Of a stretch of DNA of 36,758 nt, positions 22,797-25,330 are shown piece by piece (position 1 is the first letter of the stretch; each line of letters begins with the position of its first letter). The stretch comes from Desulfobacterales bacterium (GTDB lineage: Bacteria > Desulfobacterota > Syntrophobacteria > B119-G9). The position numbers were made by a program, and so were the translations under genes. The notes below the pieces were generated by a model. It had not been told where the DNA came from, searched no databases, and saw nothing but the letters and a program-made list of their open reading frames with translations. Location of the stretch: positions 1 through 36,758 of the forward strand of contig JALSTM010000227.1 of the NCBI GenBank assembly GCA_026983715.1, read 5' to 3'.

Positions 22797-22835
22797 AAAA
22801 AAAGAGCCCTCACCATGACGGCTAATGATGAGGGC
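22797..22835 (-). terminator. intrinsic terminator on minus strand
   Basis: minus strand GCCCTCAtcattagccgtcatggTGAGGGC followed by TCTTTTTTTG. Confidence 0.7.
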
Positions 22836-22874
22836 CTGGATAGGGGATGGGAGGGTGCCAATGTCACCACTGTG
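22798..22874 (-). ncRNA. candidate short non-coding RNA
   Basis: Intergenic segment between a sigma54-like site (22886-22900) and an intrinsic terminator; no convincing ORF. Confidence 0.4.
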
Positions 22875-22885
22875 TATTGGAGAGA

Positions 22886-22900
22886 GCAAAGAAAGTGCCA
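22886..22900 (-). promoter_or_regulatory. candidate sigma54 (RpoN) -24/-12 promoter
   Basis: minus strand TGGCAC-TTTCT-TTGC-T; overlapping upstream TATAAT at 22908-22913 on the same strand. Confidence 0.45.
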
Positions 22901-22988
22901 AAAGTTTATTATAGCCAAAGAATTTGCGCGGCGGATCTACCCACAACGTATTGTCATAACGTAATGATATTATGGTTATTATTTCTCT

Positions 22989-23017
22989 TTGACTATTTTA
23001 GAGGTGTACATTAAGAT
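22989..23017 (+). promoter_or_regulatory. candidate sigma70-type promoter for nrdJ
   Basis: TTGACT (22989-22994), 17-nt spacer, TAAGAT (23012-23017). Confidence 0.45.
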
Positions 23018-23092
23018 TACGGTGCCAATCTGGAAGCCGGTCTTGTTAAAAATTTATTGACATATATTGACCATTTTTTGACTAGTGGTAAG

Positions 23093-25330
23093 ATGGATAG
23101 AATACCCCCGACAGTTAAGCCTTTGGAAATATCTTCAAATGCACTTGTTGTCTTAAAAAAACGCTATCTTAAGAAGAATGAAAAGGGAGAACCCGCTGAA
23201 ACTCCAGAGGAGCTTTTCTGGAGAGTGGCGAGGGCAGTAGCTTCTGCCGATGAGAAATTTGACCCCTCCGCGGACCTCGTTGAAATCGCTACCAGGTTTT
23301 ACAATCTTATGGTAACACTAAAATTCCTCCCCAATTCCCCGACATTGATGAATGCAGGACGGAGACTTGGGCAATTATCGGCCTGTTTTGTTCTTCCCGT
23401 TGAGGACTCAATAGAAAGTATCTTCGAAGCAGTTAAAAATACAGCAATAATTCATAAGAGCGGAGGAGGAACGGGGTTTTCTTTTTCGAAGATAAGACCG
23501 GAAAACGACCAGGTCCTATCCACTCAAGGAATTTCAAGTGGTCCTGTATCCTTTATGGCGATATTTGACGTCGCCACCGAGACCATAAAGCAGGGTGGCA
23601 CCCGCAGAGGCGCAAATATGGGGATACTGAGAGTTGATCATCCTGATATCGAGAAATTTGTTACCTGTAAGCGGGATCCGAACAAATTTAATAATTTTAA
23701 TCTATCGGTTGCAGTAACGGACAGTTTCATGGAAGCTGTTGATAGAGACATAGAGTGGGGACTGGTTAATCCCAGGACCGGGGATCAGGTAAGGCGCGTT
23801 TCTGCTAAAGCGTTGTTCGATACAATTGTAGAAAGTGCTTGGGAAAGTGGTGAGCCAGGTCTTATTTTCCTGGATGCGATCAACCGCGCTAACCCTACGC
23901 CCCACGTGGGAGAAATAGAGGCGACGAACCCTTGTGGGGAGCAACCATTACTTCCCTATGAATCCTGTAACCTCGGTTCTATCAACGTTTCCAGGGTAGT
24001 TAGAGACCGCTTCCCTGCTCTGGAAGAATTTTCGGACGTGCGTGAATTTCTCAGTAAGGCCATAGATTTTTCTGAATTGAAGCAAATCATCTGGGATGCA
24101 GTTCATTTCCTCGACAACGTTATAGAGATAAACAGGTATCCGCTTCCCGAGATCGAAGCCAAAACCAGGGGAAACCGGAAAATTGGCCTCGGAATCATGG
24201 GCTTTGCGGACATGTTGATAAAGCTAAATGTTCGCTACGATTCTGAGATGGCTGAGAAGATAGCCAGGGAAATAATGTCTTTCGTCCAGGAAGAATCAAA
24301 GGCTGCATCAGCGAGCCTGGGGGAAAAAAGGGGGAACTTCCCCAATTACCATGGTTCTGTTTACGACAACCCCGAAACTCCTTACATGCGAAATGCAACC
24401 ACCACGACTATTGCTCCCACAGGTACCATAAGCATTATAGCTGGGTGCTCAAGCGGGATTGAACCTATATTTGCAGTATCCTTTGTCCGGAAGGTTTTAG
24501 ATGGCCAGGAACTGGTAGAAATCAATCCGCTGTTTGAAAAAGCAGCAAAAGAGATGGGGTTTTATAGTCAAGAACTTTTTAAGAAGGTTTCGGAAAAAGG
24601 TAGCATAAAGGAGATGGAGGAAGTCCCTCGCAGCGTGAGGGATGTCTTCGTTACGGCCAGGGATATTAGTCCTGGTTGGCATCTCAGAATACAGGCGGCC
24701 TTTCAAAGATATACAGATAACGCTGTTAGCAAGACCATTAATTTTCCGTTTAAAGCCAGTGTGGAAGATGTTCGGAAGGCATATCTGCTGGCTTATGAAC
24801 TTGGATGCAAGGGGATAACGATTTATAGGGACAGATCAAGGGCAGATCAGGTTTTGAGCACACCTGTGCATCCAAAGTACCCCCAGGTGGAACCTCGTCC
24901 GAGACCGGACAGGACGGTAGGAGTAACAGAGCGAATATCTACGGGATGCGGCAAACTTTACGTTACGATAAACAGTGATGAATATGGAATATGTGAAGTG
25001 TTTGCCCAGATGGGAAAAGCTGGTGGGTGTGCTTATTCACAGATCGAAGCTACGAGCCGGCTTATCTCTCTTGCACTCAGGTCAGGGGTAAAGGTTGAGT
25101 ACATCGTTAAACAGCTTATGGGTATCCGATGTCCCTCCCCAGTATGGCACAATGGACAACTTGTGGTTTCTTGCTCCGATGCAATTGCAAAGGTGATAAA
25201 TAACTATGCCAAGACGGGGATTACATCTGCTCTGTCAGAGATGGGAGCGTGCCCGGAATGCGGATCGGCAATAGAGCATGAAGGTGGATGTATTGTGTGT
25301 AGGTCGTGTGGATTTACAAGGTGCGGATGA
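23093..25330 (+). CDS. nrdJ: adenosylcobalamin-dependent (class II) ribonucleoside-diphosphate reductase
   Basis: [85 protein letters not shown]-terminal Cys-rich CPECG...CRSCG; ATG 23093 preferred over TTG 23057. Confidence 0.95.

Follow-up and report, generated by a model that had tools for sequence, protein, structure and literature searches.

The intergenic region between rpmH and nrdJ

The stretch of DNA analyzed here, from now on called the window, comprises 36,758 nucleotides from a Desulfobacterales bacterium (NCBI GenBank assembly GCA_026983715.1, contig JALSTM010000227.1). It harbors on the plus strand the gene nrdJ for a ribonucleotide reductase (23093..25330; Pfam Ribonuc_red_lgC, 1.9e-138), in front of which a promoter scan revealed a likely sigma70 promoter (TTGACT-17-TAAGAT, 22989..23017, plus strand), and on the minus strand the gene rpmH for ribosomal protein L34 (22422..22556; Pfam Ribosomal_L34). 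Between them lies, on the minus strand at 22798..22873, the predicted gene of a small RNA of about 75 nt, here named sRNA-A, with nrdJ as divergent neighbor and rpmH as the next downstream gene on the same strand. The gene order yidC-yidD-rnpA-rpmH / sRNA / nrdJ / nfi is the same in the sister genome G002 (Desulfobacterales MAG JALXAI010000174.1, loci L017 and L077), the sole sister in which the sRNA-A locus is assembled, and the ATG of nrdJ at 23093 and its sigma70 promoter are also found in L017. The gap between sRNA-A and rpmH is about 240 nt in the window and about 840 nt in L077; a sigma70-like site follows the sRNA terminator (promoter scan).

At the same place in the two species, in the interval separating the promoters of the sRNA and of nrdJ, there are inverted repeats that differ in sequence, CATAA...TTATG in the window (about 22955-22975) and CCCTGT...ACAGGG in L017 (about 2868-2887), which perhaps are an activator site or an NrdR-like site. 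The sister genome G001 contains a second, divergent nrdJ (L346, identical with L019); the region upstream of it has the look of a cobalamin riboswitch (GCAAACCGGTGAAACTCCGGTGCG) and is a candidate for one.

The initial annotation of this region had reported a minus-strand -24/-12 match at 22900-22885, and it was right to do so: TGGCACTTTCTTTGCT (22885..22900) matches the sigma54 consensus, of which the window contains no other match (0.03 expected), and is kept in L017 as TGGCATCTACTTTGCT, with 13 of 16 positions identical. A count over the whole genome gave 15 occurrences of the consensus, most of them ahead of genes, and one of the reversed control, from which we conclude that this type of promoter is in use in the source genome. 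A gene for RpoN (Sigma54_DBD, 1.7e-65) is present in each of the three sister genomes. The same annotation had envisaged a second start site from a TATAAT (22908..22913, minus strand), which would yield a longer RNA with a CCAAT/ATTGG hairpin. For the TATAAT the promoter scan revealed no matching -35 element, and it is absent in L017; it was therefore judged to lie outside the gene; the CCAAT is not conserved in L017 either, which makes the longer form unlikely. The failure of both to be conserved speaks for one start instead of two, the sigma54 start being the one supported. In both species conservation sets in 12-13 nt past the C of the -12 element, which fits a sigma54 start at 22873 or 22874.

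From its 5' end the RNA is predicted to consist of a weak hairpin (ACAG[U/C]GGUGACAUUGG), the linker CACCCUCCCAUCCCCUAUCC and a terminator hairpin whose loop has 8 nt; the 80-nt form folds with -24.3 kcal/mol (z -1.9). The stem-loop and terminator previously seen downstream of the sigma54 site were recovered as an intrinsic terminator (22805..22836, minus strand) of 12 pairs, 6 of them G-C, followed by CTTTTTTT and identical in L017. Likewise identical in L017 is the C-rich linker CACCCTCCCATCCCCTATCC (22838..22857, minus strand), which is predicted to be mostly unpaired and is complementary to Shine-Dalgarno sequences. For the CCUCC in its CCCUCCC the partition function gave a mean unpaired probability of 0.54-0.63. 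A second copy of the linker was not found in the genome with up to 3 mismatches allowed, nor was one found in an exact scan of viral contigs. This invariant linker, to which the initial annotation had paid no attention, is the most telling part of sRNA-A.

Conservation and identity of the RNA

Over positions 22804-22875 the predicted transcript and L017 are identical at 70 of 72 positions. Identity in the flanks is 57% upstream and 45% downstream of sRNA-A, and the fourfold sites of nrdJ are identical at 56 of 211 positions (27%, essentially random). The conserved block begins at the expected sigma54 start (22873-22874) and stops at the T run of the terminator. These limits, together with the degree of identity, favor a start from the sigma54 promoter over one from TATAAT and speak against both the long form and a protein-coding gene. 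The initial annotation had suggested looking for promoter and stem in closely related genomes as a check of the sRNA reading; both are kept in L017, which, together with the encoded RpoN, supports that reading.

Among the nrdJ loci of 59 genomes, promoter and RNA are carried by L017 alone. A covariance model (R1) run on 56 genomes of the class yielded, outside the genus, matches of 14-24 bits without the promoter, which look like chance. In G001 the locus is unassembled, the true nrdJ orthologue (L018) beginning inside nrdJ at a contig end, so that absence there says nothing. A loss of sRNA-A in G001 had been considered and was discarded, since the nrdJ match in that genome is the second nrdJ mentioned above and not the orthologue. 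With sRNA-A present in just two species, there is no covariation to back its structure.

The locus is very probably a sigma54-dependent sRNA gene. Promoter, terminator, exceptional conservation, an encoded RpoN and the finding of no Hfq gene are what the sequence supports; Hfq was not found in any of the three sister genomes, two of which are incomplete. We regard sRNA-A as a stand-alone, trans-type sRNA, ordinary in kind, strongly supported as a gene by its sequence features, and unlisted. No family in Rfam matches it, RyhB (RF00057) reaching 15.6 bits (E about 1) as compared to a gathering score of 55.

Since sRNA-A is adjacent to the rpmH-rnpA-yidD-yidC operon on the same strand and its terminator could be read through, it might be the leader or attenuator of this operon. 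The unequal distances to rpmH, in a gap that is not conserved, argue against a leader, as does the sigma70-like site after the terminator, and we consider this highly improbable. That promoter and terminator are chance matches at which transcription does not start is hardly credible, since the predicted RNA is 70/72 identical with the promoter kept. A small protein gene can practically be dismissed, for although open reading frames of 46-53 codons overlap sRNA-A, coding potential is absent: they have no Pfam match, their starts are not common to the two species, and the conserved block shows no synonymous change, whereas the fourfold sites of nrdJ are randomized.

RNAs of the same layout in the genus and the phylum

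Two more genes, both with a terminator and conserved in sister species, came from scans of the sister genomes for sigma54 sites with ACAG or CCTCC behind them. One encodes the sigma54-driven, C-rich sRNA-B (L128:1501-1611, that is G000:C216:20617 on the plus strand; L127; L135), which is identical over about 60 nt in G000, G001 and G002, contains the tract CCCUGACCCCUCCUCCCUCCUUCCC and has a histidine-kinase-type gene on one side and an epimerase gene on the other. As in sRNA-A, the conserved part opens with ACAG, 11-12 nt behind TTGCT. Within the sRNA-B tract there is also CCUCCUU, the anti-Shine-Dalgarno sequence of 16S rRNA. The other gene, for sRNA-C, has a sigma54 site, a C-rich sequence and a terminator (L194, G000:C247:4588, minus strand; L206, G001:C24:6500, plus strand) and is positioned directly behind the gene of a PAS-type enhancer-binding protein, the placement known from Pxr (see below). 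At L134 (G002:C383:418, minus strand) a pyrimidine-rich stretch and a strong terminator come after a sigma54 site (TAGCTGACTGGATATGGCCCCATCCAGTTAGCTTTTTTTTT); this is possibly a further sRNA.

In 395 genomes of the phylum the pattern TGGCAYN5TTGCW-N20-50-CCCTCC was matched about 77 times and the reversed pattern, an approximate control, 13 times. A terminator shortly downstream was present at 34 of the 77 scored sites, among which a few loci of this genus are counted twice, and in 101 of 1450 control windows (7%); with a stricter terminator detector the numbers were 27 of 75 and 18 of 431. Directly downstream of, and in line with, the gene of an enhancer-binding protein were 15 of the 34 terminator-bearing sites, nine of these proteins having been covered by a Pfam check.

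Part of the excess is accounted for by one homologous family with invariant AACCCTCCTCTCC, which spans five taxonomic families (G316, G254, G354, G335, G406, G424, G296, G154, G276 and G181, with three copies in G371). Its terminator hairpin is variable: for four predicted pairs, one sequence or more differs at both paired positions. The loci of this family (L180, L182-L188, L190, L191, L178, L179) are mostly found behind an NtrC-type response regulator. Further candidates with sigma54 site, CCCTCC and terminator are L160 and L161 (G244, G287), L147 and L148 (G257, G299), L163 (G092) and L195 (G004), of which several are conserved in genome pairs and some lie behind the gene of an enhancer-binding protein. 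None of the phylum-wide candidates is in Rfam. As judged from their sequences they and sRNA-A appear alike in design, homology not being demonstrable beyond promoter and C-rich tract.

We therefore lean towards the view, at somewhat better than even chances, that there exists in the Desulfobacterota an unlisted class of anti-Shine-Dalgarno sRNAs, several per genome, which act independently of Hfq and are transcribed by sigma54 polymerase, often behind the gene of their own enhancer-binding protein. Each activator would turn its signal into the selective blocking of ribosome-binding sites; sRNA-A would be a detached member of the class and Pxr an outlying example. A description of such a class was not found in the open-access papers searched, which is not proof of its absence. 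Regulatory RNAs have been little explored in the Desulfobacterota, a phylum of sulfate reducers and their relatives, and the sRNA-A locus is an entry point to a design of activator, sigma54 and C-rich sRNA that Rfam does not contain and that recurs in many of the phylum's families. The design also offers a hypothesis for how sRNAs act without Hfq, in parallel to Pxr.

Proposed mode of action and comparison with known systems

We infer expression, action in trans, repression and targets of sRNA-A from the above features and propose that it probably acts by blocking Shine-Dalgarno sequences in trans, independent of Hfq. Sigma54 RNA polymerase, opened by some enhancer-binding protein, would start on the minus strand at about 22873 and produce the RNA of about 75 nt, which ends near 22798 at the intrinsic terminator. 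The linker CACCCUCCCAUCCCCUAUCC would then, most likely, pair without Hfq to purine-rich Shine-Dalgarno regions of target mRNAs, which would be translated less under the condition sensed by the activator. The RNAs of like layout in the genus and the phylum-wide excess speak in favor of this; the moderate exposure of the CCUCC (54-63% unpaired) and the finding of no enhancer-binding protein encoded in the window speak against it.

Targets were searched for by listing TGGGAGG-N3-13-ATG sites in G000 and G002 and comparing orthologues, with one seed. In both genomes CCCUCCCAUC of sRNA-A is the perfect 10-nt complement of the Shine-Dalgarno region of ftsZ (GATGGGAGGG; identified by Pfam Tubulin/FtsZ), whose leader is conserved as a whole; ftsZ may thus be a target, this being a weak lead only. 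Another conserved start, with a 9-nt complement in both genomes, belongs to an unnamed gene without a Pfam match, and a third, with 7 nt, to what we take to be a phosphofructokinase-like gene.

Alternatively, the sigma54-driven RNA could be a decoy that titrates a protein binding C-rich single-stranded RNA and does not pair with mRNAs. What otherwise dissimilar RNAs have in common here is their repeated C-rich tracts, invariance of the whole transcript would fit protein binding too, and no Hfq was found that could aid pairing. However, tracts and structures differ among sRNA-A, sRNA-B and sRNA-C, the tracts match Shine-Dalgarno complements and a C-rich-binding protein was not identified; we consider a decoy unlikely. 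Much less probable is that sRNA-A mainly tunes its divergent neighbor by pairing with the nrdJ leader. With the gene order kept, AUUGGCACC of the sRNA is a perfect 9-nt complement of GGUGCCAAU in this leader (about 23022-23030; duplex -19.6 kcal/mol), but in L017 just 6 nt are left (-13.5 kcal/mol) despite the invariant sRNA, and the pairing site is about 65 nt ahead of the start codon.

For the proposed blocking of Shine-Dalgarno sequences there are several systems to compare. C-rich motifs of RsaE/RoxS from Firmicutes pair with Shine-Dalgarno regions; these RNAs differ from sRNA-A in being Gram-positive and not sigma54-dependent, and their Rfam model (RF01820) gave sRNA-A 11.8 bits as compared to the gathering score of 79. 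CrcZ/CrcY, Qrr and GlmY/GlmZ depend on Hfq, Crc or RapZ, CrcZ being a decoy for Crc/Hfq. They owe their transcription to sigma54 polymerase and an enhancer-binding protein (PMC6292655, PMC10162802), have no sequence match to sRNA-A in Rfam, and Hfq was not found in the host of sRNA-A.

The Pxr sRNA of Myxococcus xanthus and relatives has a predicted sigma54 promoter, a length of about 100 nt and a terminator hairpin, in a host without Hfq; its gene is directly behind that of its activator, nla19/pxrR, and a C-rich stretch, CCCCCCACCCC, can be deduced from the published probe (PMC5568312, PMC5684412). Direct targets of Pxr are still unconfirmed (PMC11928866). By this published description Pxr resembles sRNA-A in promoter, terminator hairpin, C-rich stretch and a host in which no Hfq was found, but it has three stem-loops and an adjacent activator gene. 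No gene for an enhancer-binding protein was found within the window, so that sRNA-A does not have the placement of Pxr, the layout of which is better matched by sRNA-C and f82-type RNAs. In Desulfovibrio vulgaris, of the same phylum, Dv_sRNA2 is directly downstream of the response regulator DVU0679, which has its binding site there (PMC3333781); the likeness again is one of description, with no regulator adjoining sRNA-A. The alpha-r14 and NfeR1 sRNAs of Rhizobiales have CCUCCUCCC-type motifs that are unpaired and for which pairing with Shine-Dalgarno sequences has been predicted, the NfeR1 promoter being without a sigma54 signature (PMC10746234). They share with sRNA-A the anti-Shine-Dalgarno motif, which they carry in each of three hairpins, without being homologous. 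Thus sRNA-A combines the promoter logic of Pxr and Dv_sRNA2 with the motif of alpha-r14/NfeR1.
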